A stretch of DNA of 62,477 bases from a virus. Numbering within the stretch: the first letter of the stretch is position 1; the number at the start of each line of letters is the position of its first letter. The notes under the pieces are model-generated. The model was not told the origin of the DNA. It did no database searches and saw only the letters and a list, made by a program, of their open reading frames with translations. This document shows, in pieces, positions 11,606 to 56,600 of this stretch. A program made the translations under genes and the position numbers. The stretch covers positions 1 through 62,477 of the IMG/VR virus record IMGVR_UViG_3300050821_008916; one strand, given 5' to 3'.

Positions 11606-12294
11606 GTCCTCGCCTCCATCACCACTCGCCGGATCGCCATCGGCGTGAAGGGCTTGCCGGAACGGGACAGCAATTTCAGTTCAACCAAAGCCGTGCTGAT
11701 GGCCGGCAAACTCATGCCCGCGTTGTAGCCAGAAATCATGCCGGCTTTCGCTTCCAGTTCGCGCATATCTTCTTCCAGAGTCGCTGCCCGCCCCTCTCCC
11801 ACCTTCCGGTAACCGAACGGGACATTGCCCACCGGCCCGCCCTTGGCCTTCTTGGCCCGCCGGCCGTCAGCGGTGCGCTCCTTGATCCGGATGCGCTCCA
11901 TGTCGGCCACCGCCGCCAGGATCGTCATGATCAGCTTGCCGACCCCGGCGGATACCGGCTCGTGGGAGATGTCGAACAGCACGAGGTCGACACCACGCTT
12001 CTTGAACTCGTCGAACATGTCGATGGCGTCGGACGCGCTGCGGAACATGCGGTCGAGCTTCGAGGCCACGACGATATCGCCCGGCTTCATGTCGGCGAGC
12101 AGCCGGGCACCGGCCTCGCGCTTGGCCAGCCGGACCGCGCCGGATACGCCCGCGTCGGTGTAAATCTGGACGTCAAGACTGTGGGCACCGCGGATGCGGG
12201 CGAAGCCCTCGATCACATCGGTCTGGACCTGCAGGGACGAGCGATCATCCTTGGCCTGATCCGCCGAGCTTACACGCGCATATCCGAGAATCAT
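11602..12294 (-). CDS. Serine recombinase (resolvase/invertase type)
   Basis: The start at 12294 follows a strong GGAGGGG box, giving 230 aa. The catalytic domain begins GYARVSSADQ with the nucleophile Ser at residue 9. It continues with YTDAGVSGA, R-x-G-A-R-x-L, the D-I-V-V-A-S-K-L-D-R-M-F-R motif (residues 73-85), E-R-I-R-I-K-E-R-T and a C-terminal DNA-binding helix-turn-helix (MSLPAISTALVE). The length fits resolvases and invertases, not large serine integrases. It could resolve multimers, invert a segment or mark a mobile insertion. It has its own sigma-70-like promoter inside the operon. I found no inverted crossover sites flanking a segment. Confidence 0.88.
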   Translation of the reverse strand: MILGYARVSSADQAKDDRSSLQVQTDVIEGFARIRGAHSLDVQIYTDAGVSGAVRLAKREAGARLLADMKPGDIVVASKLDRMFRSASDAIDMFDEFKKRGVDLVLFDISHEPVSAGVGKLIMTILAAVADMERIRIKERTADGRRAKKAKGGPVGNVPFGYRKVGEGRAATLEEDMRELEAKAGMISGYNAGMSLPAISTALVELKLLSRSGKPFTPMAIRRVVMEART

Positions 12295-12312
12295 GCTCCC
12301 CTCCTGTGTTAT

Positions 12313-12347
12313 GTAGTCAATATGCGCTACGCCGACACCTTCGTCAA
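12313..12347 (-). promoter_or_regulatory. Recombinase promoter with palindromic operator
   Basis: On the minus strand TTGACG (12347-12342) is followed after 17 bp by CATATT (12324-12319), ending 24 bp before the recombinase ATG. An inverted repeat GTAGC-N8-ACTAC (12330-12313) covers the -10. A near-identical element lies at 16966-16983. Confidence 0.6.
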
Positions 12348-13340
12348 GGCTTGATCCCGCACCCACGGGTACGTCATGGCAAGCCCGTTCCACAATGATG
12401 TCATGGGCTCCCACTGCAACACCGTCCGGCACAAGGTGTTGTCCGATCCCCTCGCCTGCACCCCGGACGGACCCGGCACCGATTTCCACGCCAGCACCTT
12501 GTTGGCCACCCGGCACACCGTCACGAACAGTTCCTCCACCGTCACGGTTTCCGAATGCGCGATATTGACCGGCTGGCCGTAGCCGGACGTCATCAGGCGC
12601 AGGATGCCGTCGATCACGTCGTCGACGTAGGTGTAAGATCGTCGAGCATGGGCGTCCCCCCAGAGATCGACGACGCCGGCGTAGGATGCCTGCGCAACCT
12701 TGCGACAAATTGCTGCCGGCGCCTTCGCGCGATCGCCATCCCATGCGCAATACGGGCCATAAGTATTTCCGATTCGTCCCACCCGGATATTGAATCCGTA
12801 GTTGCGGGCGTAGGCGTCGTAGAGTTTTTCGGCATACAATTTCTCCTGGCCGAAGGCGAAGGTGTCGAAGCGGGCGTCGGTTTCCCGGTGCGCCGCATTT
12901 CGTTCTGACTCGTGAATCCCGAAACCCAATCGTTCCCCCGAAAAAGGATCGATCTCGAATTTGTCCGGATACACGCACTGGCTGGATGCGAAAAAAATCT
13001 TGTTGCAGTTGCCGGTTTTCCGGATCGCTTCCAGCGTGTGCAGATTGATCTTCAGGGAGTTCGTAAGAATGTCAGCGTCATGACTACCAACGCCGATATA
13101 CCCCAAACCACCCACATCGCCGGCGAGCTGGAAAACTTCGTCAAAAGCGTGACGGTGAAAATGAGCGTGGAAATCAGCGACATTCGTAAGATCAAGGATG
13201 TTGTACTCATCGGCCACCGACTTTCGATAAGGAGGATGTTTTCGCGCGACACTGACGACGTAATGGCCTTCGGCTTTCAGCCGATGTTCAAGATGACCCC
13301 CGAGGAAGCCGGCGGCGCCGAGCACAAGAACTTTTTTCAT
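12327..13340 (-). CDS. NAD-dependent nucleotide-sugar epimerase/dehydratase (SDR family)
   Basis: This 337-aa protein is an extended short-chain dehydrogenase. The Rossmann motif is GAAGFLGGH (residues 8-16), followed by YNILDL, LAGDVGGLGYIG, the catalytic-Ser strand FFASSQCVYP and the C-terminal motif RSYTYVDDVIDGI, as in GDP-fucose synthase and GDP-mannose-3,5-epimerase relatives. The usual YxxxK reads F-G-Q-E-K, with Phe (TTC) in place of the catalytic Tyr, so activity may be altered or lost. It lies among glycosyltransferase genes and would supply or modify their nucleotide sugar. Its 3' end covers the recombinase promoter. Confidence 0.88.
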   Translation of the reverse strand: MKKVLVLGAAGFLGGHLEHRLKAEGHYVVSVARKHPPYRKSVADEYNILDLTNVADFHAHFHRHAFDEVFQLAGDVGGLGYIGVGSHDADILTNSLKINLHTLEAIRKTGNCNKIFFASSQCVYPDKFEIDPFSGERLGFGIHESERNAAHRETDARFDTFAFGQEKLYAEKLYDAYARNYGFNIRVGRIGNTYGPYCAWDGDRAKAPAAICRKVAQASYAGVVDLWGDAHARRSYTYVDDVIDGILRLMTSGYGQPVNIAHSETVTVEELFVTVCRVANKVLAWKSVPGPSGVQARGSDNTLCRTVLQWEPMTSLWNGLAMTYPWVRDQALTKVSA

Positions 13341-16965: not shown

Positions 16966-16999
16966 GTAGTCAGTATGCACTACTTTTTGGTGTTGTCAA
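16966..16999 (-). promoter_or_regulatory. Sigma-70-like promoter with palindromic operator
   Basis: TTGACA (16999-16994) and CATACT (16977-16972) are separated by 16 bp on the minus strand. The inverted repeat GTAGT-N8-ACTAC (16983-16966) covers the -10, as at the recombinase promoter. The end of the gene at 16980 overlaps the promoter. Confidence 0.6.
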
Positions 17000-17441
17000 C
17001 CGGCGCCGTGTTTTCCGGCTTCGTCTCGGGCAGCGGCTGCACGGCGCCGGCAGGCGCCCCGGCGATCCGGGTCTTGAGGTACACCACGAACTGGCCGAGG
17101 TCGAGGCTGCGCGCCTGCGCCGCGGTGTCCAGTATCCCGTTCGGTCCCATCAGCATCCGTTCCTCCTGCGCGGTCAGGACCAGTATCTTGCAGGGCTCGC
17201 CGGCGGTCGGGCACTGAGCGTGGGGAAGGTCGTCGGCACGCGCATGCCGCGTCACCAGCGCAAGGATCAGCAGGACGGCGGCGGCAAGAGTGAGCGGGAA
17301 GCGACGGGCGAAGACCATGAGTTTTCCTTTTAGTGTGAGAGATTTCATCTTGTCGATGGCGGCCTGGTTGCGGGCGATCTGCGCGACATCACGCTCGATC
17401 TGGGCGGCTATTTTTTCGAAGCTGATGTTGGGGCGGGTCAC
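16980..17441 (-). CDS. Membrane-anchored or secreted protein of unknown function (153 aa)
   Basis: GTG 17441 overlaps the upstream TGA, with GGAG 7 bases before it. Residues 1-35 form a charged helix (IAAQIERDVAQIARNQAAID). A basic stretch and a hydrophobic segment (FPLTLAAAVLLILALV, about 48-63) then end in the cleavage-like ARA. An internal ATG at about residue 32 would make this a clean Sec signal peptide, so the gene may encode two forms. The rest is polar, with one Cys pair (CPTAGEPC). The function is unknown. Confidence 0.6.
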   Translation of the reverse strand: MTRPNISFEKIAAQIERDVAQIARNQAAIDKMKSLTLKGKLMVFARRFPLTLAAAVLLILALVTRHARADDLPHAQCPTAGEPCKILVLTAQEERMLMGPNGILDTAAQARSLDLGQFVVYLKTRIAGAPAGAVQPLPETKPENTAPVDNTKK

Positions 17442-40088: not shown

Positions 40089-40672
40089 CCCCACCCATCC
40101 CCGAGAATGCCGGCGAACGGGAAGAGATCGCGCGGAAGCTGGCCTTATTCTCCAAAGACGAATTGATCGAGGAACTGATCGGCGCGCTGGAACGGGTCGC
40201 CTTCCTCGCCCGCAATCATGCCGCTAGAGCGCCAATGCAAGAGGCTGAGGAACAGATTGATGTGCTCGCCGCCTTGCAGATCACGGAAAATGCGGACATC
40301 GATTTTCTACTTGCGCAACTCAACCTAAATCTGGATTCCGTGGCGGCTCGAACTGCGGTGGGATCGTTTCGAAAGCAGATGATCCTATGTGCGGTCACGC
40401 GCCCTTGGCCAAACCCGCCTGCCGCTAGATCGCTGGACGGCGAGACGATCCAGACGCTTCTGGACTTGCTCAACCCGCTGCACGGCGAGTTGGACAAGCA
40501 GACCTATGATGCCAAGATTTCCATGGAGTTCGACACCCCGCCGGACTACGCGCACGATGTTTGTGTTACCGCCCAGCAAGAGCGCGATCTGTGCCAAGCC
40601 GTTCTGATCTTGGAAAACCGCCGCACAGCCGTCACGCGCCCTGACGGGGGCCAGCCTAAGTCCTCGGGTTGA
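40085..40672 (+). CDS. Phage protein of unknown function (195 aa), last gene of the rightward operon
   Basis: The N-terminal 60 residues are acidic helices (EREEIARKLALFSKDELIEE, then LIGALERVAFLA), followed by ETIQTLLDLLNPLHGEL and a Cys-containing C-terminus. Its 3' end overlaps the convergent peptidase-like gene by 17 bp. Function unknown. Confidence 0.6.
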   Translation: MTPPIPENAGEREEIARKLALFSKDELIEELIGALERVAFLARNHAARAPMQEAEEQIDVLAALQITENADIDFLLAQLNLNLDSVAARTAVGSFRKQMILCAVTRPWPNPPAARSLDGETIQTLLDLLNPLHGELDKQTYDAKISMEFDTPPDYAHDVCVTAQQERDLCQAVLILENRRTAVTRPDGGQPKSSG

Positions 40673-41231
40673 CGATCGTGTACCGCGAAATGTCCACCTC
40701 GTGGATGCGGGTGGCGTGCCCGCCGCTGTTGGCGTCGTAGACTAGCCACACGCTGCCATGCCGGTGCTCAATCAAGGCGATGACGTGATGCGAACGGACG
40801 CCGGCGGTGTCGGGTGCCGGCGCTACACGGGGAAACCTGAACCAGTTGGCGGCCAGCCACAACGCGCGAATCGGTGCCCCCAGGAGACGCACCGCGGCGC
40901 CGCAACCGCAAAATGCCCGTGCTGGACATCCTGCCGGATGCTCCACAATTTTTGCATCCGAGGACCGGGCGGCAACCGGCTGGCTTCGCCTAGATACGTG
41001 CTGGGAGTGAAGCGCGTGTCGCTTGGGGGCCACCCCGCCGAACCCCATCTGCCGGGCCACGTACCTGCCGCGCGCCACCCGCTGGGTCTCCCTGACCGCT
41101 GCGACCGTCGCCGGGATCTCGCAGGGCATCGTGATGTTGCACATCGGATGCAGGCCGGAAGGGTGCCGCTGCCGGGCTTCGGACGAGGAAACGAGGCCGA
41201 GCAGGATCAGTGCGGAAACCAGATACTTCAT
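40656..41231 (-). CDS. Secreted cysteine-peptidase-like protein (CHAP/NlpC-like, tentative)
   Basis: The 191-aa protein starts with a Sec signal peptide (MKYLVSALILLGLVSSSEA). The C-terminal half contains FCGCGAAVRLLG with a candidate catalytic Cys, RALWLAANWFRF, HHVIALIEHRHG with a candidate His, and VYDANSGGHATRIHEV with a candidate Asn/His. This order, Cys-Gly then an aromatic helix then HH then DANSGGH, resembles papain-like peptidases of the CHAP/NlpC type. It is the last gene of the late block, convergent with the replication operon. It may help lysis or degrade the cell wall. Confidence 0.55.
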   Translation of the reverse strand: MKYLVSALILLGLVSSSEARQRHPSGLHPMCNITMPCEIPATVAAVRETQRVARGRYVARQMGFGGVAPKRHALHSQHVSRRSQPVAARSSDAKIVEHPAGCPARAFCGCGAAVRLLGAPIRALWLAANWFRFPRVAPAPDTAGVRSHHVIALIEHRHGSVWLVYDANSGGHATRIHEVDISRYTIVNPRT

Positions 41232-42272: not shown

Positions 42273-42575
42273 CTACGCAGGCGCCGTTCCATCGCTATCG
42301 GTCTGTGAGGCGATCGCGTCGAACGCGGCATCGACCTGTTTGTCCAGCACCTGCAGGGTGGCCAGCTGGTCGGCATTGGCCGCCGGCGAGGCGCTGAGTG
42401 CCGCGATGATGTTCTTGACCGGCTGGTACAGCGAGGCGATCTCGTTGACGATGAACGGCAGGAACTGGGTGAGTGCGTTGAGGATCGAGTCGACCAGTAC
42501 GACGTTCGCACCCGTGCCCAATAGCGGCAGAAGCTGCTCGATCAGCGAGAGCAGGGCGGTGATTGCAATGGTCAT
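42273..42575 (-). CDS. Hydrophobic protein of the lysis cassette (100 aa)
   Basis: ATGA couples it to the lipoprotein gene. The N-terminal half is hydrophobic (IAITALLSLIEQLLPLLGTG, then ALTQFLPFIVNEIASLYQPV), and the second half is Ala-rich helical. A holin-accessory or virion role is possible; no family is clear. Confidence 0.6.
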   Translation of the reverse strand: MTIAITALLSLIEQLLPLLGTGANVVLVDSILNALTQFLPFIVNEIASLYQPVKNIIAALSASPAANADQLATLQVLDKQVDAAFDAIASQTDSDGTAPA

Positions 42576-42946
42576 TGGGCGGCTCCTGCGGGGATCTGGG
42601 ATTTGAGGGCGGTGACCGTCGCCACCAGGGCGTTGTAGAGGGCGGCGGGACCGGCGGTGTTCGAGACGATGTACGGCTCGAGCTGGTTGCGGGTGACGCG
42701 GCCGGCGCGCACGGCGGAAACCACGGCCTGCCGGGTTTTAAGGGCACAGACCGACTGGACCGGATTAGCCTTGCAAAACAGCAGGTACTGGGTGGCGCTG
42801 GCCTCACCGGCGTCGAAGGCGTTGGCGGCCACGAGTATCTGGGTCGGCGACACCGAGACCCCGGTGACGACCGACCACGCGGTTTGCAGTGAGGCGCAGG
42901 CGCCGAGCGACAGCGCAAGCGGGATAATCAGCAGGAGTTTTCTCAT
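42572..42946 (-). CDS. Lipoprotein (124 aa)
   Basis: The start at 42946 follows AGGAG on the minus strand. A signal of type II is clear: MRKLLLIIPLALSLGAC, with lipobox L-G-A-C and lipidated Cys at residue 17. The mature part is helical (ALKTRQAVVSAVRAGRVTRN). Small lipoproteins beside lysis genes can be outer spanins, though this one is long for an Rz1 type. Lipid modification implies a Gram-negative host. Confidence 0.75.
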   Translation of the reverse strand: MRKLLLIIPLALSLGACASLQTAWSVVTGVSVSPTQILVAANAFDAGEASATQYLLFCKANPVQSVCALKTRQAVVSAVRAGRVTRNQLEPYIVSNTAGPAALYNALVATVTALKSQIPAGAAQ

Positions 42947-43358: not shown

Positions 43359-44111
43359 CTAGCCGGTGCTGCCGGGTGTATCGGACGCGGCGGCGTCGAA
43401 GGCGGTGTCCACGTCGGTTTGCGCGGGCTCTGCCGGTGTGGGAGGGGGTGTGTGCGGCGGGGACGCAGGTGGCGGGCCGGAAACCACGGGTGGGGCAACC
43501 GGGGAAGGCATCGCAACAGGGGAAGGCACTGCAACCGGTGAGGTACCAGTAGGCAGCGCCATCAGCGCCGCCACGTCGCGCCTGAAAGCCACCATGTCGA
43601 AATTGGGATCGTCCTTGCGACCATGTGGTAGGGCATACTCCTTGTGTCCGGCGCACATGATCGGCAGCGCCCCGATGTGTCGAAGGATCGCCGCGCAGCC
43701 CCGCTTATAGGCATCCATCTGCACCGCCGGCCACGGCTCGAGCGGGTTGCCTTGGCGATCGCTGGTGCCGATATTCTCGGCCTCGATGCCGATCAGATGG
43801 GCATTGCCGTCAGTGATGCCCTGCCAGTTGCCGCCGCCAGCGTGCCAGCCCTTGCCGGCCGCGATCATCCAGTATTGCCCGGAACGGCCCAGGCCGAGAT
43901 TGCAGAGAGGACCGCCAAGATCAGGGCGACCGTCAATGAGCACGTTGAGATCAGGAAGATCGCCGTGCAGAGGTCCGCAAGTATGGTGGCAAAGAACTCC
44001 GAGAACCTTTCCTTCATCGCCATGTCCTCGGTTCTGCCAGCCCGGCACTTCGTTCACGATGAGCCCGGCAGCTCGCAGGATGCCGGGAAGCCACAAGAGA
44101 GAGAAAGTCAT
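43359..44111 (-). CDS. N-acetylmuramoyl-L-alanine amidase endolysin
   Basis: From ATG 44111 (AAGGG with good spacing) the protein is 250 aa. Residues 1-185 match the amidase_2/PGRP fold: LGVLCHHTCGP with zinc ligand His at 42-43, GIEAEN (109-113), CAGHKEYALPHGRKDDPNFDM with zinc ligand His 156 and the acidic D172. The last 65 residues are a Pro/Ala/Thr-rich tail (SPVAVPSPVAMPSPVAPP) with no cell-wall-binding domain. It cuts the amide bond between MurNAc and L-Ala to release progeny. The holin-like gene lies just downstream. Confidence 0.9.
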   Translation of the reverse strand: MTFSLLWLPGILRAAGLIVNEVPGWQNRGHGDEGKVLGVLCHHTCGPLHGDLPDLNVLIDGRPDLGGPLCNLGLGRSGQYWMIAAGKGWHAGGGNWQGITDGNAHLIGIEAENIGTSDRQGNPLEPWPAVQMDAYKRGCAAILRHIGALPIMCAGHKEYALPHGRKDDPNFDMVAFRRDVAALMALPTGTSPVAVPSPVAMPSPVAPPVVSGPPPASPPHTPPPTPAEPAQTDVDTAFDAAASDTPGSTG

Positions 44112-44116
44112 GCTGT

Positions 44117-46825
44117 TCATCCCTTATATCTTGCTTGCAGGAACGTCTCTCGAACGCCGTTGAACAACTGGACCGAACCTCCGCTCGAACCATCGCCAGA
44201 TCGTTCGATGCATGTGAGCGTGTGCGTGCCGAAATACGGAGGCAGAACGATATTGGATACCACGGGAAGTCCGTGGGCCATACCCGTGGTATCGAAATTA
44301 GTACTCGCATCGGTGCCGGAAATAGCCGTGATGGTATCCACGCCGATGCCTACCTCGTAAGAAGCCGGGGCCGACGGAGATCCGGTGTTCATGAACACCG
44401 CCCGCTGCACCTGCGCGGTGACAGGTTGCTGGGCCAGTCCGACGAAAGGCACGACACTGAACGTTGAATTTTCGCACGGACTGAACAATTGATTAGTGAG
44501 GGTGTAGGCCGTGGTAGTGTCGGCGACAATACCGGCCTGCTGGACGATATCGACCTGCCGGTAAGCATTCCACAGGTTGAATGTGCGGCTGGGGCCGTAG
44601 GAGAAATACACGGACACCTGCCCCGCAGACGCAGCATCGGTCTGAAACGAACCGAGATAAGTCCCCTGGTACTGGCCGGTAGTGATCGTCGTGCTCGAAG
44701 AAACCCGCGCCGTCATCGAAGCATCGTTGACCAGAATGCCGCCGTAATGGGTTAGCCGGCGGGTTACAGGCGCCGTTGTTGTGTTATACTGTATCTGAGC
44801 GATCCACACGTTGAAGCCGGGAGTTACGACGTAGGGATCGCGGTCGAAACAAGTCCTCCAGTATTGATAAGGTTGCTGGTTGCCCAGCAGGATGGGCAAG
44901 GTATAAGCCGCTCCCATGGCCGCGTCGTTAATCCAATTCAACGACATCAGATAAAAATTGGTACCGTCCGACGAGGCGTAGGTACGGATATCCATCACGC
45001 CGATATTGCCCATGACGAAATGGTCGGTCGGCGCCGTTACAGTCGTACTGGTGACAATTTGAGGCGAACCGAAGTTCTGCCCGAGGCAGTTGGCGAGTCC
45101 CGCGTTGGCCGCCACCGTGGCAGAAGTCGTGCCGCTCTTGACGACAATACCGTCGAAAGCGGCGGTCGGCCGGGTCCACGCCGTCGGCGTCGTACCCGTA
45201 GTGATTGTGGTGTTGTTTGAAATCTGCGACGTGGTCGGCAGCATGCTTGCATCCCACGCCCGGGTGGCGAGCACCAGCGATCCGCTGTTGATCACGGCGA
45301 ACACGTCGAAGATGCTGTTGGCGGGCCAGCTGGCGGACCCGCCTAACCCGAGCGAGATGCCGACGTTATCGGCTGCCGGACAAGTGCCTCCCGATAGGAA
45401 GCAGTTAAGAGTCCATGCCGACCCGTTATAGACCGGCACGAACTGGCCGTTGTCCGGTGCCAGGTAGATCGTTTGACAGCCGACGCAGTCGGCACTCATG
45501 TAAGGCTGCCCGGATACCAAGGTCAGCCGGCCACCTTGCGAGTTAATAATGGTGGGATCGACCGACAACGTCCCGGTCGTGGTGATGGCCCCGCCCAGCA
45601 ATCCGACACCGCCCGTGACCGAGGTAACGCCAGTGCTGGCGATGGTGCATGTGCCACTGGTGGTGATGGTGCAGGTACCGGTGACCGAGATGCCGGTACC
45701 CGCTGCGATCGTAGCACTGGTCACCGTGCCGGCATTACCTGCCGAGAACTGCACGAAAGTCAGCGCGTCGGTGCCGACCGTAACCACGGTCGATTGCAGG
45801 GTGTAGGACGCGTTGATGTTGGCCGAGCCGGCGGTGACGAAAGTATACGAGCCGACCTTCATCTTCGCGGCGGTGTCGAAGTAGGTAGCACGGGTCAATA
45901 CCCACGGCACGCCGCCGCCCGCAGTGGTGACCTGATAAATGCCGTTCTGGAAAGTCGACACCTGATTCTTGACAAGCACGACATCGTTGAGATTCGCCGT
46001 GGTGCCGTCCACGGTAAGCGTTGTGTTCGACCCGGCGGTCAGCGTGGCGCCGACACCCAACGTGCCGTTCGCATAGGTCGGTGTGTTCGGCAACACGGTA
46101 GCCGTAGCCAGGCGGCTGGGAGCCAGGATGTTGAGGCCGCTGGACGAGGCATCGACGTAGGATTTGATTGCGACATCGCTGGCGTTGACCGGGGTTGGAA
46201 ACCCGGTCGCCGTGCCGCCGGTAAAAGCTACGGCGTTGGCATTCTGTGTTGCTACTGACCCGAGGCCGAGAGCGGCACGGGCACTGGCGGGGTTGTTGCT
46301 TCCGGTGCCACCAGAAGCGACGGCTATTGGGGTGCCGTTCCAGACACCTGTCGTGATGGTGCCGCTGTTAACCGCAAGGCCGCAGTCCTGCAGCAGCCCG
46401 GTGGTGTTGACAAAGCACGGCACGTCGCCGGTCGTGAACGGCGGGTTGCCGAACAGAAACGAGCCGCCGCCGGTCGGGATCGTGACGATAGTGCCATTGA
46501 TGACGTACTGCAGGGGTTGCGGGGCGGCGGTGCCGTAGTTCTGCACGCTGATCGTCGCGGGGCCGGTGGTTGAGGCCGACAGGCAAAGCTGGTTGCGTCC
46601 CACCGCGGTCTGCCGTTGACTCGACACGCAGAACCCGGCCCCTCCTTCGTTGGTCACGCCGATCGATGAGATCGGACTGTCGGCGGCCGAGGTGCCGGCA
46701 CCGATCACGCCGGGGGTCACCCACACCGGGATCTGGTTGCGGGTGATCGTGCCGGAATACTGGACGTTCTGTGCGAGCGCCGGGGCTGCAAGAAGCAACG
46801 CGATCAGGGCAAGGATTTTTTTCAT
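44117..46825 (-). CDS. Large tail-fibre-like protein with Sec signal peptide
   Basis: The start ATG 46825 (GAG 9 bases upstream; a GTG at 46831 is possible) gives 902 aa. The first 20 residues are a textbook signal peptide (MKKILALIALLLAAPALAQ). The body is Thr/Ser/Gly/Ala-rich beta repeats (GTVTSATIAAGTGISVTG) as in tail-fibre shafts, with the widespread fibre module GGRLTLVSGQPYM...VYNGSAWTL. The C-terminal receptor-end-like region (residues 640-900) shares QGTYLG and LWNAYR with the next gene. A signal peptide on a fibre-like protein is unusual. It suggests export, not simple cytoplasmic assembly, or a surface-displayed protein. Confidence 0.78.
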   Translation of the reverse strand: MKKILALIALLLAAPALAQNVQYSGTITRNQIPVWVTPGVIGAGTSAADSPISSIGVTNEGGAGFCVSSQRQTAVGRNQLCLSASTTGPATISVQNYGTAAPQPLQYVINGTIVTIPTGGGSFLFGNPPFTTGDVPCFVNTTGLLQDCGLAVNSGTITTGVWNGTPIAVASGGTGSNNPASARAALGLGSVATQNANAVAFTGGTATGFPTPVNASDVAIKSYVDASSSGLNILAPSRLATATVLPNTPTYANGTLGVGATLTAGSNTTLTVDGTTANLNDVVLVKNQVSTFQNGIYQVTTAGGGVPWVLTRATYFDTAAKMKVGSYTFVTAGSANINASYTLQSTVVTVGTDALTFVQFSAGNAGTVTSATIAAGTGISVTGTCTITTSGTCTIASTGVTSVTGGVGLLGGAITTTGTLSVDPTIINSQGGRLTLVSGQPYMSADCVGCQTIYLAPDNGQFVPVYNGSAWTLNCFLSGGTCPAADNVGISLGLGGSASWPANSIFDVFAVINSGSLVLATRAWDASMLPTTSQISNNTTITTGTTPTAWTRPTAAFDGIVVKSGTTSATVAANAGLANCLGQNFGSPQIVTSTTVTAPTDHFVMGNIGVMDIRTYASSDGTNFYLMSLNWINDAAMGAAYTLPILLGNQQPYQYWRTCFDRDPYVVTPGFNVWIAQIQYNTTTAPVTRRLTHYGGILVNDASMTARVSSSTTITTGQYQGTYLGSFQTDAASAGQVSVYFSYGPSRTFNLWNAYRQVDIVQQAGIVADTTTAYTLTNQLFSPCENSTFSVVPFVGLAQQPVTAQVQRAVFMNTGSPSAPASYEVGIGVDTITAISGTDASTNFDTTGMAHGLPVVSNIVLPPYFGTHTLTCIERSGDGSSGGSVQLFNGVRETFLQARYKG

Positions 46826-46827
46826 CG

Positions 46828-47952
46828 TCACATTCTCAGGTTCACGCTGAATGCATTCAGCGAATTAGTGTCAAAGGTATTGGCATTTGCGCCTGAGTTG
46901 GTTGCTTCATTGGCCGAAAGCACATGCAAACCGACTTGAGGTGCGCCAATATAATACGCAAATTGCCCATAACTTGGGGTAGTAGATGCAACATCATTAG
47001 TTGCAATAAACCTTTGGGATGAACAATTTGAAGTTATGTCTAGTCCTATACAAATCCAATTTCCCGCTGCAAGAATGGTAGCGAGTGTAGTTTCTCCAGC
47101 ATAAAACGCAGAAACCCCATCTTCTGCCAACCCGGAAATAAAACTAACCTGATTACCTGCCGAAGCCCTCGCCTGCCGAACGGTATTAACGGCATAGGTG
47201 TAAGAGGCTCCGCTATCCGTTACTGTTGTCGCCACGTTCACCCGGTTGTACATATTCCACACGCCGAGCAATCCGGCGGTGCCGCCCGAGGCCGAAGCGC
47301 CAAGGGTCCAGCTGACCTGCCCGTTAGCGCTGGAATAAACCGTCCCGAGGTAAGTGCCTTGGTTAGCGCTTACCGGACCGTAGTTAGTGGCTCCGTTGAA
47401 GCAATTGGTGATCGAATTTTTATTGGTGATGTAAGGCCGGGTTATACGATCCAACTGCGTGTAGCCGGTGCCGCGCGCAGTGTTTGAGCCGGCGGTATCA
47501 GCAGACCAGCCACCACCGCCGCCAACCGCTGCCGACATGGCCAAGCAGATTTTATTCGCCCCGCCGGTAACCCACCATACGTCGTACACGTTGTTGTTGA
47601 CCACTTGCCCCGCACTGGCGGCCGACACCATCGCGTCGGTGACCTCGCACGATGCAACGGTGTCGAGCGTGTCAACCGTGCCGTTGAAGTAGGGCACGGT
47701 GTTGCCGAGGTAGCAGTCGTAACGCAAAGTGGTTTGCGCGGAGGCCGTCGCCGTCATCACCGGGGTGTTGGCGGTCAGGGTCAGGCGACCCTGCGCGGTT
47801 ATGACGCCGAAGCGGATGTCGTTGCCTTGTGCGCAGGTGCCGCTCGCCGTGCCGAAAGCCGAACAGGGCGCGGTGGGTCCGACCGCCTGCCCCTGCTGCG
47901 CTTCAGCCGCTCCTGCAAAAAAAAGTAGTAACCCCGCAATCAGCCGGATCAT
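46828..47952 (-). CDS. Fibre-like protein with signal peptide, paralogue of the larger fibre
   Basis: ATG 47952 follows GGGGGATTT. The 374-aa protein starts with a signal peptide (MIRLIAGLLLFFAGAAEA). It then has GRLTLTANTPVMTATASAQT and a VPYFNGTVDTL strand, the same module as in the 902-aa protein, and a C-terminal part with QGTYLGTVY, GQVSWTLGAS and LGVWNMYNRV. The shared blocks show that the two genes are related. It is coupled on both sides by ATGA or GTGA. It is likely a fibre or receptor-binding variant. Confidence 0.75.
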   Translation of the reverse strand: MIRLIAGLLLFFAGAAEAQQGQAVGPTAPCSAFGTASGTCAQGNDIRFGVITAQGRLTLTANTPVMTATASAQTTLRYDCYLGNTVPYFNGTVDTLDTVASCEVTDAMVSAASAGQVVNNNVYDVWWVTGGANKICLAMSAAVGGGGGWSADTAGSNTARGTGYTQLDRITRPYITNKNSITNCFNGATNYGPVSANQGTYLGTVYSSANGQVSWTLGASASGGTAGLLGVWNMYNRVNVATTVTDSGASYTYAVNTVRQARASAGNQVSFISGLAEDGVSAFYAGETTLATILAAGNWICIGLDITSNCSSQRFIATNDVASTTPSYGQFAYYIGAPQVGLHVLSANEATNSGANANTFDTNSLNAFSVNLRM

Positions 47953-49340
47953 TTGAAATCCCCCGCGATAAAGGCGTGGGTAGAAGCGGTCTTGGTAAAG
48001 CACCCGGTGGTGCTGACGCCGATAACGATGCCGGTGCCGAAAGGAAGCCCGGCGGGAAAGGCCGCGGAAAAACTCGTGCTGCCCGAAGCCATGGCGTAGC
48101 AGCGAGCCGGCGTGACCGCGCCGTCCACCGGGGCCGTCGTGGCGTTGTAGATCATAATCCACCACGCGGCGGCCGACAGCGTGGAATCCGCCGACACGTT
48201 GAATGAATAAAGGCTGGAAGCCGCGTTGTTGACCACGAGGTTGGCGGCAAGCGCCGAGGCCGCTGTGTTGGCGGTCGTTACCGCCGAGACCGACAATGCG
48301 CCGCCCGAACTGACGGCAGCGCACCTCCACGGATTGGTCGGGTCGCATATCCTGATCTCGTTACGCCCGGTATCGCCAACCGTTGTCTGATTGACGGTCA
48401 AAAGTGCGGTAGAAGTAGGCCCGGTGCCGGTATTGGCGATTGCCGCATGGGCGACGGGCAGCGTGTTGACGTTCGGTCCGGGAGCGCCGGTGATGGTGAA
48501 CGCGACGATATTGTCGATGCCGTCGATCGCCCAGTAAGTGTTGTCCCCGCGGAAATAGATGATGTACTTATGGACGCCATTATCTTGCGGCTGGGCCACT
48601 TTACCGATCAAACCGGACGCGCAGCCCGAGGTCGTCGTGCCCGTGCCCAGCGGGCCTCCATAAGGATTTGCTGACAGGCAGGCGACGGACAAGTCGGCGA
48701 TGACCGTCTTGGTGCCGGCGGCCAACGAGCCCGCACTGGCCGACATCACCGCGCGAAGATGCCCGTCGGTGCCCAGTTCAAATCCGACCGCATCCGCGTA
48801 GGGGGCGGCAGCGGTGGGCGCTGCCGGGAATGTAGCAAAACCCCAGAACCTGACGGCGTTCAGCAGGACCGGAAATTCGAAGTTGTTTTGCTCCTGGAAA
48901 AAATTCCACGAGGGGTTCTTGCCGGGGAACGAGAACTGCGAGGATAAAAGCGACCACCCGCCGGCCGTCGTGCCCGAGCCGAGCGCGGTAAAACCTACTG
49001 CGTTCGAAGCTGCGGTTGCATTGCCCCCGCCGCCAGTGGTGGGCGATGTCCATTTCGCGGTGGTGTCCAGCGTGCCGGTGCCGAAATCGTCCCAGAACAG
49101 TTGCGTCGGTTCCTGCGCCACGCGCGCCGCGGCGCCAGGGGCGGAAACACCTTGCGCGATGCCGTTGAGAGAAACCGACGTCGTCGGCAGCGGCGACGAG
49201 GTTTGACACGGAGTCCACTGGTACGGTGGCGAGGCCGGATTGACGACGCAGTACATGTTGACTTGCTGCGCCGACGCCGCCCCGATCCACGGCAGCGCGA
49301 GGATAAAACCGAGCGCGAGGCGCTTGATAAATCGTTTCAT
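47949..49340 (-). CDS. Secreted beta-rich fibre/lectin-like protein (463 aa)
   Basis: ATG 49340 follows GAGGCGG. A signal peptide (MKRFIKRLALGFILALPW, cleaved after ASA) is followed by a Cys-bearing Pro/Thr segment. A jelly-roll-like domain about residues 80-250 reads FWDDFGTGTLDTTAKWTSPT, GKNPSWNFFQEQ and GFELGTDGHLRAVMSASAGS, resembling concanavalin/lectin-like phage domains. A final beta module carries SADSTLSAAAWWIMIYNAT. Binding of host surface glycan is plausible. It is the third consecutive gene with a Sec signal. Confidence 0.7.
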   Translation of the reverse strand: MKRFIKRLALGFILALPWIGAASAQQVNMYCVVNPASPPYQWTPCQTSSPLPTTSVSLNGIAQGVSAPGAAARVAQEPTQLFWDDFGTGTLDTTAKWTSPTTGGGGNATAASNAVGFTALGSGTTAGGWSLLSSQFSFPGKNPSWNFFQEQNNFEFPVLLNAVRFWGFATFPAAPTAAAPYADAVGFELGTDGHLRAVMSASAGSLAAGTKTVIADLSVACLSANPYGGPLGTGTTTSGCASGLIGKVAQPQDNGVHKYIIYFRGDNTYWAIDGIDNIVAFTITGAPGPNVNTLPVAHAAIANTGTGPTSTALLTVNQTTVGDTGRNEIRICDPTNPWRCAAVSSGGALSVSAVTTANTAASALAANLVVNNAASSLYSFNVSADSTLSAAAWWIMIYNATTAPVDGAVTPARCYAMASGSTSFSAAFPAGLPFGTGIVIGVSTTGCFTKTASTHAFIAGDFK

Positions 49341-49624
49341 TTCCGCCTCACGATGTAGTTGGCTGCCAGGACAAACAGCGCGAAGATCGAGTTGTGGACG
49401 ATCTGCTGCGGGTTGGGATCCGGGGTCATGCGCCAGAGCCACCATGCACCTATGCAGGTGATCAGGGTGAACAGGTCGGCTGCCGCGGTTAGCGCCCGCT
49501 GGCCGAGTGCCTTCAGCCCGATCTGGAGCATGGCGACGGCCACGCCGTTATCGACGGGCGGTGCGGGCTTCGGTTCGGCCTCGGTGCCGCCGACCACCTC
49601 GAAGCCCGGATTGGTTTGCGCCAT
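49337..49624 (-). CDS. Membrane protein near the fibre genes (95 aa)
   Basis: ATG 49624 and a 4-nt overlap with the next gene are seen. The N-terminus is polar (TNPGFEVVGGTEAEPKPAPP). Two hydrophobic segments lie at about residues 47-65 (ALTAAADLFTLITCIGAWWLW) and 76-90 (VHNSIFALFVLAANYIVRRK). It may be a membrane accessory for the secreted proteins or a holin-type protein. Confidence 0.6.
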   Translation of the reverse strand: MAQTNPGFEVVGGTEAEPKPAPPVDNGVAVAMLQIGLKALGQRALTAAADLFTLITCIGAWWLWRMTPDPNPQQIVHNSIFALFVLAANYIVRRK

Positions 49625-49636
49625 GGGTGTACTCCG

Positions 49637-49852
49637 TCACTTGACCGCGTGGATATTGCTTCGGAAATTGTCGAAATTCGGCAGATCGCCGTCCTCGGGA
49701 TCGCCCTTACCCGCGTTTTTCTTCAGCAGGGCGTAGTAGGGCATCAGCGCCTTGAAGGCGTCGAGCCGGTCCCCGAACGCCTTTTCCGCCATATTAGCGT
49801 CCTGGGCGAGCTGGGCCGCCAGTTTGTCCATCTCGTCGGTAAAACCGGTCAT
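49637..49852 (-). CDS. Small acidic helical virion-module protein (71 aa)
   Basis: ATG 49852 overlaps the stop of the large ejection-type gene (ATGA). The product (FTDEMDKLAAQLAQDANMAE, then RLDAFKALMPYYALLKKNAG) is helical and ends with an acidic loop (GDPEDGDLPNFDNFRSNIHAVK). Small helical proteins after ejection proteins occur in podoviruses. The role is not known. Confidence 0.6.
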   Translation of the reverse strand: MTGFTDEMDKLAAQLAQDANMAEKAFGDRLDAFKALMPYYALLKKNAGKGDPEDGDLPNFDNFRSNIHAVK

Positions 49853-52800
49853 TGCGACGGTCCTGCTCCCTGTACAGCGGCTTCACCGGCGCCGGCTCCA
49901 ACCGCCCCGCCTTTCTGTAGCACGGCACTGATGGACGCCCTAACCGCTTCCCGGTCCTCTTTGGAGCCGGTCAGGCCGCGCTCGAGCCAGCGCAGCAGGG
50001 CGGGCGAGGTCATCATTTTTCGCACCACGGAATAATAAGTGCCTAAAGCTACACGGGCTACGGGAGGAACTGCAAGGCTGGCAGCAGCTCCGACAGGTCC
50101 ACCAAGGTAAAAACCTCCTGCGGCAAGCACTGCCCGCGATGCAGGGTGTTCGATTTTTGCAAACGCAGACATGCTGCTTCCAGCGCCACCTTTGTTAATG
50201 TTTTCAAGCAAAAACGGCATCTCTTTGGCCAGCGTGCGCGCTTGGCCGAGTGTAACCCCGGGAAACATAATCTGTTGTATTTCTTCCGACACGCCTGCGA
50301 GTGCTTTATCTGCGCGCATAGTGCTGCTGGTCAGCAGGCGCTTGGCCCACACCTGCCGCAACATCTCGAATTCAGGCGACTTCTCGCCGAATTTGGACGC
50401 AGCGGCCAGGATCAGGTCTTCGGAGCCGAGAATCTTGTCGACCGCCTCCGACGCGCCGGTGGTCGGGTTGTAGAGGAAGCCCAGCGGATCCTTGCGGCGT
50501 TCGGCCGCCATTTTAGATGCCTCCCGCTTGTGCTCGATCTCGACCTTCTTCATCTCCTTGCCCAAGGCGCCGAGGGGATCGCGCTTGGCCTCGGCCTTCG
50601 CCACTTCCTCGGCTTGCCGTGCCCGCGCGATCACCTGTGTGACGGTATCGCCGGGCCGCACCGGGATATCCAGCCGCCCATCCAGCATCTCGATACGTCG
50701 CGCCTGCTCCAGCAGTTTCTCAGATGCCTCCTTGCCGTGAACCACTTCGAGCACATTGTTGCGGTGGCGGGACAGCACCTCGCGGGCAAAAGTCCGGCCG
50801 TCGACCACGCCGGGGGTCAGCGACTTCGATGCATCCAGCATGGCCTGCATGTCGGCTGCCTTGACACCGGCCCACAGGTTCGGTCCGACCTTCTCCTTGA
50901 TCGCGGCGGTCAGGTCCGACTGCCCGGATTTGACGACGACGTTGTAGAGGTTGGCGGGATCGGCGGGTTCGCCGGCTTCCAGTCCGCGCATCACCGCCTT
51001 GACCTGCTGGGCGTTGAACAGCTTTATGTTCTCGCCGTACCACTTATCAGCATCTTTCAACAGCTTCGACGCTTCCAGCAGTTCGGGCACGGCATCGGCA
51101 TCGTGCAAAATGCTGTCCACCTTGCCCGCGAAGAACTTGTAGGTGCCCTCGCGGATATCGGGGGTGAGGTCGCTGTAGTTGATGTTCGAGCGCATCTGCG
51201 ATCGCATGTTGTGCAACTGGCCGAACGTCGGACTAACCGGCTCCTTGATCCACTCGCCGGTCTTCTCATCCTTGACGCCCGCCAGATCGCGCAGCTTGCG
51301 CACGATATCCGGATATTTCGACTGGAAGTCGGGAGGCAGTTGCTGCAAAAACTGCTCGGCCTGATGCGGCAGGCCCTCGATATTTGGCAAATGCCCGCCA
51401 GCAGCCTGGTCGGCAGCGTCATACATCTGGGTGGCGCGTTCGCCAACACCGCGGCGCAACGCGATCAGTTTGTTGCCGACACCCTGCCAGAGATCGCCGG
51501 CGTTGACGCCGGAGTCGGCGATCTTCATCCCGGTCTTGATGTCGGTCTCGATATCCTTGTAGCCGGCGTCGATCACGGCCTGCGCCGCGGTGCGGGCTTC
51601 CTCGGCCGCTTTCAGCACCGTCTCGCGCTGGGCGATCTGTCCGGGCGTGCCGGTCGAAGCGGCGGCTTTCTTCGCATCCAGCGCCGCCTGCATCTTGGCG
51701 TCCGCCTCGGACAGTTCTCCCAGCGTCCGGCGCATCAGCGCCTCGCCGGCTTCCTTGGTCGGCACGGCGCCGAGGGGCTTGGTCAGTGACCCCGGATCCT
51801 TGATGCCGAGGGTGTTGAGAATAGCGCCCGCCGATTTCTCATAATGCGCGGTCGCCGACTCCAGCAACGGCTGATTGGTGTGGAACGCGGGGTCGAACAC
51901 CTCGACCACGTTCTGCAAATGCGGAGCTTCCTTGGCCCATGCCGAGGGCGGTACCAGCACGCCTTTGTTGGCAAGGCTGGAGGCTTGCGCGAGGTCTTCT
52001 TTCCCGGCGCCAAGGAATGAGCGGGCAGCCCCGGGAGCTGCGGCGCTGGCGGCCGAGATGCCGGACTTCAACGACGGCACCACGGTCGAAATGCCGCGGC
52101 CGACGCCGGCGCCCATAGAGCCGCCAGCAGCCGCCAACCCCATTTCAGCCATTTCGTCCCAACGGGAACGATCTAGGGTGCCCGAAAGCCCCATAATTAT
52201 GTCGTTAAATCCTTGCCCCAGCATCGCGCCGGTGGCGCCGCCTACCGTCGATCCAACAAACCCGCCCTCTAATCCTCCGGCGATTGTGCCTGCAACAGGC
52301 ACAACTGAACCTGCCGTTGCGCCTCCTGCTGCGCCAGCCGCACCTCCCCCAAGAGCACCGAGAATTGACAGTATTGTTGGAGCAGTTGCGCTAGCAACAG
52401 CGCCCGTGACTTTCGATAGTCCTCGGCCTGGTTTACGGAGCACGCCATCGCCATCCTCCACGTAGAATCCGCCAGATGGATCTTCCTTTACCTTATTAGG
52501 ATATGATCGTTCAAGCGCTTTCTTGCGTTCCTTGTCGTTGACCCCCATGTCGAACAGGGTCTGGGCGGTGAAATCGATGCCCTCGTATTTCGGCTTGGTG
52601 CGGATTTTTCCTTCCGGGTCGGCGTACTCCGCGCCCTCGGCGATGCCCATGTAGTCGGACTTGTTACGAATCGGCTTAAAGCGGTGCTGCCCTTGTGGAT
52701 CGAGGTACGCCGTGCCGTGCTGCACGCGCTCGTAGTCTTCCGGCGAACTCACTTTCGGCAACTGCGGTGCATGATCCTCGTGGCCACCGACCGCTTGAAC

Positions 52801-52854
52801 GGCAAGTTCTCCAGCATCTACAGGTCGAAAATCGAAATCAAGATTCTGGGGCAT
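49849..52854 (-). CDS. Large internal virion/DNA-ejection protein (1001 aa)
   Basis: The start ATG 52854 overlaps the upstream stop. The N-terminal 140 residues are polar, followed by a glycine-zipper-like membrane-active stretch (SILGALGGGAAGAAGG, GTIAGGLEGGFVGSTVGGAT). A helical region of about 650 residues has repeated Ala/Lys/Glu coiled coils (ADAKMQAALDAKKAAAS, AEEARTAAQAVIDAG, EVAKAEAKRDPLGALGKEM), and the C-terminus carries a second Gly/Ala-rich hydrophobic patch (AAGGFYLGGPVGAAASLAVP). This matches T7 gp15/gp16-like or P22-like ejection proteins that form a channel through the envelope. There is no lytic motif. Confidence 0.75.
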   Translation of the reverse strand: MPQNLDFDFRPVDAGELAVQAVGGHEDHAPQLPKVSSPEDYERVQHGTAYLDPQGQHRFKPIRNKSDYMGIAEGAEYADPEGKIRTKPKYEGIDFTAQTLFDMGVNDKERKKALERSYPNKVKEDPSGGFYVEDGDGVLRKPGRGLSKVTGAVASATAPTILSILGALGGGAAGAAGGATAGSVVPVAGTIAGGLEGGFVGSTVGGATGAMLGQGFNDIIMGLSGTLDRSRWDEMAEMGLAAAGGSMGAGVGRGISTVVPSLKSGISAASAAAPGAARSFLGAGKEDLAQASSLANKGVLVPPSAWAKEAPHLQNVVEVFDPAFHTNQPLLESATAHYEKSAGAILNTLGIKDPGSLTKPLGAVPTKEAGEALMRRTLGELSEADAKMQAALDAKKAAASTGTPGQIAQRETVLKAAEEARTAAQAVIDAGYKDIETDIKTGMKIADSGVNAGDLWQGVGNKLIALRRGVGERATQMYDAADQAAGGHLPNIEGLPHQAEQFLQQLPPDFQSKYPDIVRKLRDLAGVKDEKTGEWIKEPVSPTFGQLHNMRSQMRSNINYSDLTPDIREGTYKFFAGKVDSILHDADAVPELLEASKLLKDADKWYGENIKLFNAQQVKAVMRGLEAGEPADPANLYNVVVKSGQSDLTAAIKEKVGPNLWAGVKAADMQAMLDASKSLTPGVVDGRTFAREVLSRHRNNVLEVVHGKEASEKLLEQARRIEMLDGRLDIPVRPGDTVTQVIARARQAEEVAKAEAKRDPLGALGKEMKKVEIEHKREASKMAAERRKDPLGFLYNPTTGASEAVDKILGSEDLILAAASKFGEKSPEFEMLRQVWAKRLLTSSTMRADKALAGVSEEIQQIMFPGVTLGQARTLAKEMPFLLENINKGGAGSSMSAFAKIEHPASRAVLAAGGFYLGGPVGAAASLAVPPVARVALGTYYSVVRKMMTSPALLRWLERGLTGSKEDREAVRASISAVLQKGGAVGAGAGEAAVQGAGPSQ

Positions 52855-54827
52855 CAGGGCTTCACCAGATAGGCGCCTTCTTCGGGCGGGTACGCACGCC
52901 GCCATTTTTTCCCCTGAAATTCAAAAGTCTGTCCCCCCGGAATGCGACTGTTAACGGCGTGCGCAAAAGCGCGTTGAGAAGGTGTCCCCTTCGGATCGAA
53001 CACATCAGACACGCTTCCGTAAATATCTGTTTTTCCTGCTTCTGCGTACTTCGCGCCTGGACGAATCGGGTCGGGGTCTGCATCAGATAACACCTGCCCT
53101 GCACTTGCATCCGATCTCGGGCCTGTACTACCACCCTTCACCGGATCCCTGAGCCACGGGGCATCTTTGCCGGTATCTTCCGACTTCGCGGGTGGCGGCG
53201 ATGACCCGCCCGCACCGCGCGCCTCCAACTGCTGTTTGATCGTCTTGAGAAGCGGGCGCAGCTCGGCATAAGCCCGTGCGGTGTTGGCGGTCGTGTCTCC
53301 AAGGTTAAGCCCTGCGATGATGGTCTGGATTTTCGACGCTTCCGACGACAGCGGACGCCCGTTGCGGTCGTTCAGCGCCGCTGGCGCCCACTCCTGCAAC
53401 TCGGCCACGTAACGCTCGAACTGCTTGCGGTCGGTCTCGTTCGATCCGAAGATGTTGCCGACGACTTCCGCCGGGCGCGTGATCTTACCGCCGAGGCCAG
53501 TCAGCGCATTGTGCTTCTTCAGTAGTTCCTCGACCTTGTCGATGGTGTGATCCATGTTGGTGATGCGGTCCTGCTTGCCGCGGATCGTGTCGAGATTGGT
53601 TGCCGTCGGTGCGGTGGTCGCGATCTTGCGCTCCTTGACGTACTTGTCGCGGTCGGCTTCCAGTTTTGCCTCGTCCCAGTCCGGATGCTCCTTGGCCATC
53701 TGCTGCTTGTGCGCCTCGGCATCGCGGTTGATGACGCGCTCGTTGGTCAGCGAGGCCCCTGCGCCCGAGCCGGTAGCGCCCGGCGGCCGGTAGGTCAGCC
53801 CGAACTGCTGCAGCAGCTTCGCATCCTCGTCCGGCGGGATCGCACCGTCGTGAGCATCCATGTAGGCCTGACGGGCCTCCTGGTAGCCCTGGATGTTCGG
53901 CGCCTTGACGCTGAATTTCTGATGTATCTCGGCCAGCCCGTCAGCAATTTCCTGCGGGCTCTTTTGCATGTTCGCCTGCATGTACCGGCCGACCGCTTCC
54001 TGCTCGGCGGTGCCATACTTGCCGTTGGCGTCGTACACCCGCTGGATTTGCGCGGCCAGCATCATCTTGTCCTGCACGGGATCGCCGGTCGCCGGCGGAT
54101 TAGCCTTGATCGCATTAACGGCGGCCTTTTGCACGGTATGCAGGTCAATGGCGTCGGCCGCCTTCATCATCTGCTCGTTGGCTGTCGCCCGCGCCGTCTG
54201 CAACTCGTAGATTTCCTTGATCATGCCGTGCTCGGCCAGCATTAGCATCTGGCTGTCACCGAACTTGGTTGCCGCGTTGCGGAATTTGGCCTGAGACGCC
54301 GCCATGTCGGCGGTGCCGAGCGACAGCGCGTCGTTATAAAGCTCGTGCTGGGTCTTGAATCGCTGGTCGGCCAGCTTCACGTTCTCCTTAAACGCATCAT
54401 AAGCCCGCGTGTAGCCGGCCTCGTTGCCCTCCTTGATCGAGTTGATCGCGCCCGCCATGCCGTTGATGGCGTTTTCCATCGGGGCCTTGGTGAAGGCGCT
54501 CGCCACCATGGCGAACAGGCCGCCGGCCGACCCAAACCCCTCGATCGGGTTGGTCTCCCACTTCTTGTGTTCCTTGTCCGCGTCCCATGCCTTCGGCATC
54601 TCGGACGCCGCGACACCTTCTGCCTTGAACGCCTGCTCGCGGCGGGCGCGGTCCTGCGCGGACTCGGCGTTGAACTCGCCCTCGAGCTTGGTATCGCTTC
54701 CGACCTTCTTGCGCTGCAACTCGGTCAGGCTCGACACCAATCCGGACATCGACCGGTCGTCGGAACCTGCCAGATCGGCGATGGCGGGGGACGGCTGCCC
54801 GGTATCCTGCGGCTGCGTGTCGGCCAT
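52854..54827 (-). CDS. Internal virion/ejection protein (657 aa)
   Basis: Acidic and Gln/Ala/Lys-rich coiled coils dominate (ARREQAFKAEGVAASEMPKA, MMKAADAIDLHTVQKAAVNA, IHQKFSVKAPNIQGYQEARQ). A Gly/Ala patch lies near residue 100 (GFGSAGGLFAMVASAFTKAP). Residues 540-600 are a Pro/Gly/Ser linker. It is sandwiched between the 437-aa and 1001-aa proteins, giving three large helical proteins in a row. That is the podovirus ejection-protein pattern. Confidence 0.72.
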   Translation of the reverse strand: MADTQPQDTGQPSPAIADLAGSDDRSMSGLVSSLTELQRKKVGSDTKLEGEFNAESAQDRARREQAFKAEGVAASEMPKAWDADKEHKKWETNPIEGFGSAGGLFAMVASAFTKAPMENAINGMAGAINSIKEGNEAGYTRAYDAFKENVKLADQRFKTQHELYNDALSLGTADMAASQAKFRNAATKFGDSQMLMLAEHGMIKEIYELQTARATANEQMMKAADAIDLHTVQKAAVNAIKANPPATGDPVQDKMMLAAQIQRVYDANGKYGTAEQEAVGRYMQANMQKSPQEIADGLAEIHQKFSVKAPNIQGYQEARQAYMDAHDGAIPPDEDAKLLQQFGLTYRPPGATGSGAGASLTNERVINRDAEAHKQQMAKEHPDWDEAKLEADRDKYVKERKIATTAPTATNLDTIRGKQDRITNMDHTIDKVEELLKKHNALTGLGGKITRPAEVVGNIFGSNETDRKQFERYVAELQEWAPAALNDRNGRPLSSEASKIQTIIAGLNLGDTTANTARAYAELRPLLKTIKQQLEARGAGGSSPPPAKSEDTGKDAPWLRDPVKGGSTGPRSDASAGQVLSDADPDPIRPGAKYAEAGKTDIYGSVSDVFDPKGTPSQRAFAHAVNSRIPGGQTFEFQGKKWRRAYPPEEGAYLVKP

Positions 54828-56153: not shown

Positions 56154-56600
56154 CTACAACACGATGGTATACACCAGATCGTGCAAAACTCCACCCAGCC
56201 GCTCGAACAGCACCCCATGGCTATTGTCGGCCTTGGTCCTGAAAGACACGGTATGGACGCCCAAGGCCCGCATCGCCTGCGCAGTTTTCGCCAGCATCTG
56301 GTACCCGACAAGCCCCTTGCGGTGTTCGGGCAGGATGAAATGGATGTCCTCAGTCGCCCGCTTCAGTTTCCGGTAGTGCAGATCGAACGCCATGAACATC
56401 ACGATGTACCCGACAAGGTCACCATCTTCCCGCGCCGTCATCACCCAGAGCTTACCGGCCTTCTCCATGCGGTCGTAGGCCTCGAAGTCGGGATCGAGTT
56501 GCTGCACATCCTTGAACTGCGCGATTTCCTCATAGTGTCGTCGGACCACATCCATGCGATCCCACACCGCACCGATGGTTTCGACGGCGAACTCAATCAT
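56154..56600 (-). CDS. GNAT acetyltransferase in the virion block
   Basis: The 148-aa protein has the GNAT fold: WVMTAREDGDLVGYIVMFMA (beta4 region), EDIHFILPEHRKGLVGYQML with the acetyl-CoA-binding R/Q-x-x-G-x-G/A-like turn (residues about 95-102), KTAQAMRALGVHTVSFRTKA, and a final NSHGVLFERLGGVLHDLVYT. It transfers an acetyl group from acetyl-CoA to an unknown target. Its place between structural genes, with 4-10 bp gaps, suggests modification of a virion or host protein early in infection. Confidence 0.8.
   Translation of the reverse strand: MIEFAVETIGAVWDRMDVVRRHYEEIAQFKDVQQLDPDFEAYDRMEKAGKLWVMTAREDGDLVGYIVMFMAFDLHYRKLKRATEDIHFILPEHRKGLVGYQMLAKTAQAMRALGVHTVSFRTKADNSHGVLFERLGGVLHDLVYTIVL

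Follow-up and report, generated by a model that had tools for sequence, protein, structure and literature searches.

Analysis of a viral DNA of 62,477 bases, the IMG/VR record IMGVR_UViG_3300050821_008916 (the whole stretch is referred to as the window), revealed three consecutive late genes on the minus strand, between positions 44,117 and 49,340, whose products are fibre-like and carry N-terminal signal peptides (leaders) of the Sec type. The leaders, the selection acting on them, their recurrence on several types of fibre, a cysteine signature and the location of the genes in a tail-fibre slot are observed. The three products are very probably exported via Sec. The reading favoured here, with a probability of about 0.6, is that they are tail fibres which, once in the periplasm, would fold and acquire disulfides, to be joined to the virion at lysis.

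Signal peptides and fibre modules

The three genes, their predicted leaders and a shared module are located as follows:

47949..49340, minus strand: leadered fibre-like protein, 463 aa, 8 Cys in the mature part (scorer; leadered homologues)
49269..49340, minus strand: predicted signal peptide of the 463-aa protein, 24 aa, MKRFIKRLALGFILALPWIGAASA then Q (score 6.86; sister-phage comparison)
46828..47952, minus strand: leadered fibre, 374 aa, in which a C-terminal TNF/C1q-like lectin module follows a short N-terminal part containing a Cys pair; 8 Cys in the mature part
47899..47952, minus strand: predicted signal peptide of the 374-aa protein (scorer; sister-phage comparison)
46828..47790, minus strand: C-terminal receptor-binding module (GRLTL...WNMYNR...), common to the leaderless Pam5 tail spike (alignment, AF2)
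44117..46825, minus strand: leadered long fibre, 902 aa, with a class-B N-terminus (SGTIT...PVWVTPGVIG), a centre and a variant of the C-terminal module; 14 Cys in the mature part
46772..46825, minus strand: predicted signal peptide of the 902-aa protein (score 7.3; sister-phage comparison)

All three open reading frames (ORFs), singled out in a preliminary description of this DNA for their classic signal peptides, are present, and their starts overlap or abut the preceding stops. The 902-aa product (46825-44117) begins with MKKILALIALLLAAPALA followed by QNVQ, the 374-aa product (47952-46828) with MIRLIAGLLLFFAGAAEA followed by QQGQ, and the 463-aa product (49340-47949) with MKRFIKRLALGFILALPWIGAASA followed by QQVN. 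Leaders were detected with a rule-based signal peptidase I (SPase I) scorer in place of SignalP, with 5 as the threshold; 15 of 15 E. coli Sec substrates and none of 50 cytoplasmic proteins passed, with some false positives among inner-membrane proteins. The scores were 7.3 for the 902-aa, 5.7 for the 374-aa and 6.9 for the 463-aa protein, and each has the n-, h- and c-regions and the AxA cleavage site of a Sec/SPase I substrate. Chance leaders occurred in 0.24% of ORFs (14/5883) in order-2 Markov controls. The cleavage sites proposed earlier, ALA, AEA and ASA before Q, agree with the sequences, but for the 374-aa protein the scorer prefers a site at residue 15 (AGA/AEAQ, the slash marking the cut), and AEA/Q at residue 18 is a manual reading.

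Comparison with the sister phage L002 revealed 13 synonymous and 4 nonsynonymous differences over 60 leader codons (P ~1e-4 against neutrality, under which about 70% would be nonsynonymous); the leader of the 463-aa protein is identical in protein sequence, the differences being synonymous only. Because divergence is biased towards synonymous changes, the leader peptide itself is under selection. With scores of 5.7-7.3 and purifying selection on the leaders, the classic signal peptides of the preliminary description were confirmed for all three genes.

The C-terminal module of the 374-aa product (GRLTL...QGTYLG...WNMYNR) shares 37% identity with the Pam5 tail spike, and the same module, diverged, is present in the 902-aa product, where GRLTL...QGTYLG...WNxYR aligns, as expected from the earlier proposal that two of the products share fibre modules. 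In the 902-aa product, the central part gives matches to phage families and to tail-fibre proteins from other phages; beyond this centre, no PHROG or Pfam match labels the three products as fibres. The AlphaFold2 (AF2) model of the 374-aa product has a pLDDT of 79.5, with the leader and the N-terminal ~45 residues lacking a confident model. The C-terminal half of this model resembles TNF/C1q-like trimeric lectins (BC2L-C, PLTL) and a knob of the phi812 spike, with TM-scores of 0.64-0.72 to small lectin domains. The 374-aa and 902-aa products thus have sequence or predicted fold in common with known fibre and spike modules. Homologues of the 463-aa product are IMG/VR relatives only (L015, L016 in its C-terminal part, and L017), all leadered; PDB sequence searches gave nothing useful, and AF2 returned a pLDDT of 30.5 and no usable model. 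The initial designation of all three as fibre/lectin-like therefore holds for the 374-aa and 902-aa products, on module, fold and matches, while 'lectin-like' is unproven for the 463-aa product. Family searches found no enzymatic family in any of the three, and neither an outer-membrane anchor nor a lipobox was noticed.

Recurrence and cysteine content of leadered fibres

Homologues with a leader, for which the preliminary description had proposed a search, recur in dozens of diverged phages. In the C-terminal module set, 17 of 49 viral contigs have a leader on the module protein, with several unrelated N-terminal domains. The class-A N-terminal domain (...GQVPTxAQWNxxFxxKxD) was found at 222 places; among the 44 best loci (L070-L113), 42 have it directly behind a leader. 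L111, one of the two that do not, starts with MGNNPGLIPGQVPT without a leader, where the others read A followed by QSNPGLSYGQVPT; its start coincides with the cleavage point predicted for the leadered class-A relatives. In leadered fibres of the A5 family (...AAAA/MQQSQVPP) the old start methionine is kept. The predicted leader sits exactly at the domain edge. Leaders were found on at least three unrelated N-terminal domains, and the leader, as predicted, is a recurrent feature of fibres beyond one phage.

Leadered fibres are carried by window-like podoviruses, baseplate-J myoviruses and prophages of large Rhizobiales-group genomes. A Baseplate_J gene above the family cut-off is present in 20 of 31 tested contigs, which are therefore taken to be myoviruses. 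Of 16 other contigs tested, just one (L030) encodes the 1018-aa late protein of the window, and the leadered phages therefore belong to different lineages. The arrays often comprise two to four genes: three in the window, two or three in L005, L016, L017 and the prophages L234 and L236, and four in a row, with 9-12 Cys each, in L003. In prophages of 7-9 Mb genomes from the order of a Hyphomicrobium metagenome-assembled genome (MAG), baseplate J is followed by a small protein and two leadered fibres, and in L236 by an additional, third leadered gene. A scan of genome contigs gave one relative, which is leaderless and belongs to a Hyphomicrobium MAG. The class-A profile matched 4 of 266 genomes of one 7-11 Mb genus of the same order as this MAG, 3 of 397 genomes in the order (one of these in the 7-11 Mb genus) and none of 398 in a phylum sample without a positive control.

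In the window, each predicted tail or internal virion protein contains 0-1 Cys, compared with 2 in the capsid protein and 9 in the adaptor, while the mature parts of the three leadered products have 8, 8 and 14, mostly in close pairs. Leadered fibres contain about three times more cysteine than their leaderless homologues, both among proteins with the same module (1.5% vs 0.5%, P 1e-6) and in the class-A set (1.2% vs 0.3%, P 1e-5). The number of cysteines is even in about 43 of 49 leadered vs 10 of 25 leaderless clusters at 60% identity (P 3e-8). Paired and conserved cysteines, as in disulfide proteins, are thus present, the bonds themselves being predicted. Among the leadered fibres, the one at L049:3453-4277, given as 783 aa, has 18 Cys in its mature part, among the highest of the set.

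The cleanest comparison was provided by the A5 family, known as tail fibre in the annotation of Bcep781, Aeromonas and Xanthomonas phages; it comprises 80 viral loci (10 leadered, 70 leaderless) plus two leadered prophage copies. The Cys pair NCAAS...GGCPP is present in 7 of the 10 leadered and none of the 70 leaderless viral loci (Fisher P 4e-8) and in both prophage copies, which gives 9 of 12 leadered overall. On the A5 tree there is one change in the Cys pair and there are three in the leader, two of which are required by well-supported branches. The pair is, as placed on this tree, a single gain inside a leadered clade, and no claim of repeated co-gain is therefore made; the single gain limits the strength of the A5 test, yet its result agrees with the other cysteine sets. 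At the level of sequence, cysteine is evidence for export independent of the leaders. The two A5-family prophage fibres (L234:7849-9117 and L236:6970-8238) have a leader and the NCAAS/GGCPP pair and are followed by further leadered fibres.

Tail-fibre slot and proposed assembly

The late operon of the window lies on the minus strand and runs round the record ends. Its first part comprises a major-capsid match, an SU10-type adaptor and large proteins of 437, 657 and 1018 aa, for which family searches gave no tail-tube or sheath match; the later part comprises a 71-aa protein, a 95-aa protein, the three leadered genes and an Amidase_2 endolysin. This layout suggests a podovirus-like phage. In the late tail region, the leadered genes lie with those for tail/internal proteins on one side and the lysis genes on the other, and the same slot is occupied by leadered genes in L003 and L236. 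L236 and Bcep781 (gp33-gp32-gp31) have in common the order baseplate J, gpI-like protein, fibre, with gp31 annotated as tail fibre; the leadered gene thus holds the position expected of a tail fibre of the virion. By homology, which could miss an unlike fibre, the window, L003 and L236 have no recognisable leaderless fibre, and the leadered proteins are therefore the only candidate receptor-binding proteins in these phages.

In the assembly route proposed, receptor-binding tail fibres would be made from the three genes as Sec preproteins, each chain would be brought to the periplasm by its leader, and SPase I would remove the latter. The mature fibre would fold, trimerise and form disulfides in the periplasm, with an N-terminal docking domain of the same kind as that of ordinary cytosolic fibres. 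Once holin and endolysin opened the cell, virions built in the cytoplasm would meet the periplasmic pool of fibres, which would dock on the tail and confer the ability to bind hosts. Attachment at or after lysis fits best because the slot is normal, the N-terminal domain is of the leaderless type and the leadered proteins are the only recognisable fibres in several phages; this was among the alternatives raised in the preliminary description. Its broader proposal of exported fibres is supported, as far as export is concerned, by recurrence, selection on the leaders and cysteine, while a role in capturing or excluding other phages received no specific support.

The assembly of tailed phages is taught as wholly cytoplasmic. 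The chances appear about even that a split route is widespread, in which capsid and tail are made in the cytoplasm, fibres are sent to the periplasm to be oxidised and kept there, and particles become competent for adsorption only after the envelope is breached at lysis. If receptor-binding proteins do pass through Sec, virions would gain host specificity at lysis, fibres of co-infecting phages could mix at that moment, and the phages would reach the disulfide and periplasmic chaperone systems of the host, which would explain the Cys-rich fibres of these soil phages. In annotation, leadered fibre genes may be taken for bacterial secreted proteins.

Several points weigh against docking at lysis. 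Cleavage and export are predictions, as is incorporation into virions, and known fibres dock inside the cell; T4 particles can, however, take up fibres late and in vitro, which makes late docking plausible. The myoviruses L073, L079 and L104 hold a leaderless fibre beside the leadered one, so that the leadered ones could be accessory there. With 40% single-linkage clustering the cysteine parity test comprises 7 clusters only and gives P 0.19, and the A5 association amounts to one independent event, since the Cys pair arose once. Nor is export needed for disulfides as such, since the Milano virion has them and its tested structural proteins are without a leader.

Among known systems, the coat proteins of filamentous phages are virion proteins with Sec leaders; unlike the window-type phages, which are tailed and have a lysis cassette, filamentous virions assemble in the membrane. 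The Pam5 tail spike, Bcep781 gp31 and the tail fibres of Aeromonas phage 56 and Paso have the same C- or N-terminal modules and the same late-operon slot. The ordinary fibres and spikes examined are without a leader, and the Pam5 spike is without Cys, whereas the window fibres have a leader and paired Cys. The MAT proteins of Bdellovibrio are phage-fibre-like trimers in which the signal peptide is followed by a conserved, beta-rich domain of ~130 aa and the lectin-like tips are interchangeable, one of them having a disulphide (PMC10769870). The resemblance to leadered fibres is in architecture only, since MAT proteins are cellular surface proteins of a predatory bacterium, encoded outside a phage late operon; they show that export of fibre-like trimers is feasible, albeit in a bacterium. 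The Agrobacterium phages Milano (PMC10811340) and 7-7-1 (PMC12796354) are tailed Rhizobiales phages with disulfides, which in Milano occur throughout the virion, including the tail spike and short tail fibre (PMC10811340). In Milano, Cys is spread over most virion proteins tested and none of the tested structural proteins has a leader, whereas among the predicted tail and internal proteins of the window only the leadered fibres are Cys-rich. No description of leadered tail fibres in tailed phages was found in the open-access literature searched; by module and position the proteins are fibres of a known kind, for which the predicted export route is not known.

Alternatively, the products may be exported without being virion parts, as fibre-like lectins in the periplasm or at the surface that mask receptors or glycans and block superinfection or the sticking of progeny to debris. 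The leaders and cysteines speak for export and not for docking, a leaderless fibre is also present in the three myoviruses named above, and Lambda encodes an exported outer-membrane protein, Lom, between its tail-spike and tail-fibre regions (PMC12309495), although this is a beta-barrel and not a fibre. However, masking would leave the window, L003 and L236 with no receptor-binding protein, as the leadered genes are the sole fibre-like ones recognised; these genes retain a docking-type N-terminal domain and the tail-fibre slot, and the three products lack a visible outer-membrane anchor or lipobox, so that this explanation appears unlikely. A role as free adhesins or depolymerases, released at lysis to act on neighbouring cells or matrix polysaccharide, would suit the Sec leader and the lectin-like fold predicted for the head, and free-lectin or masking roles are especially possible where a leaderless fibre coexists; such a role is nevertheless improbable for the three, which have no recognised enzymatic family and whose multidomain fibre architecture and slot it leaves unexplained.

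Hydrophobic N-terminal helices can also serve as uncleaved anchors, used inside the particle or, during assembly, at the membrane, and cleavage is here a prediction. This is highly improbable, given short h-regions followed by AxA/Q, Q as the predicted mature +1 residue in 52 leadered homologues, and leaderless homologues that lack the whole segment and start at the predicted cleavage point; the even-numbered cysteine enrichment would need a separate explanation. The possibility that translation really begins further downstream, with the leaders as in-frame extensions that arose by chance, to which the internal Met retained at the old start of some A5 leadered genes would lend colour, is largely refuted by the synonymous-biased divergence of the leaders, the tight coupling of starts to preceding stops and recurrence in dozens of diverged phages against the low chance rate in the Markov controls.

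Neighbouring genes and other features of the window

Other features around the fibre array are listed below:

49849..52905, minus strand: large late protein, 1018 aa, 1 Cys, upstream of the array; probably an internal virion protein, from its position
49337..49624, minus strand: 95-aa protein directly upstream of the array, apparently with two hydrophobic segments (topology by eye)
43359..44120, minus strand: endolysin (Amidase_2), directly downstream of the array (family match)
40656..41231, minus strand: 191-aa protein with a predicted leader (MKYLVSALILLGLVSSSEA then R), score 5.5 (scorer; without a family match)

The preliminary description had pointed to a membrane protein (49337) and a secreted peptidase-like protein (40656) as parts of an exported set. 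The former has the look of a two-transmembrane protein by eye and is conserved beside leadered fibres in L003 and L030. For the latter the leader is supported, but the peptidase role was dropped, as family searches matched no peptidase family. A relative of the 191-aa protein, 38% identical, is encoded at L039:8677-9207, on an unrelated leadered-fibre contig with a Baseplate_J gene.

Most neighbours of the 1018-aa protein are 93-99% identical between the window and the sister phage L002, whereas the 1018-aa protein itself reaches only 42% identity with its counterpart there; its gene looks recombined. Adjoining the endolysin and a possible holin, the product of 42572-42943 has a lipobox-like N-terminus (LLLIIPLALSLGAC) and is a candidate outer spanin or lysis lipoprotein. 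Away from the late operon, a 153-aa ORF on the minus strand (16980-17441) has a strong predicted leader (MKSLTLKGK...TRHARA/DDLPHAQC, score 6.6). No tRNA was found in the window. A serine recombinase/resolvase match (PF00239) at 11602-12978 suggests that the phage may be temperate, and a GNAT-type acetyltransferase (phrog_1249) is encoded within the structural operon at 56154-56600.

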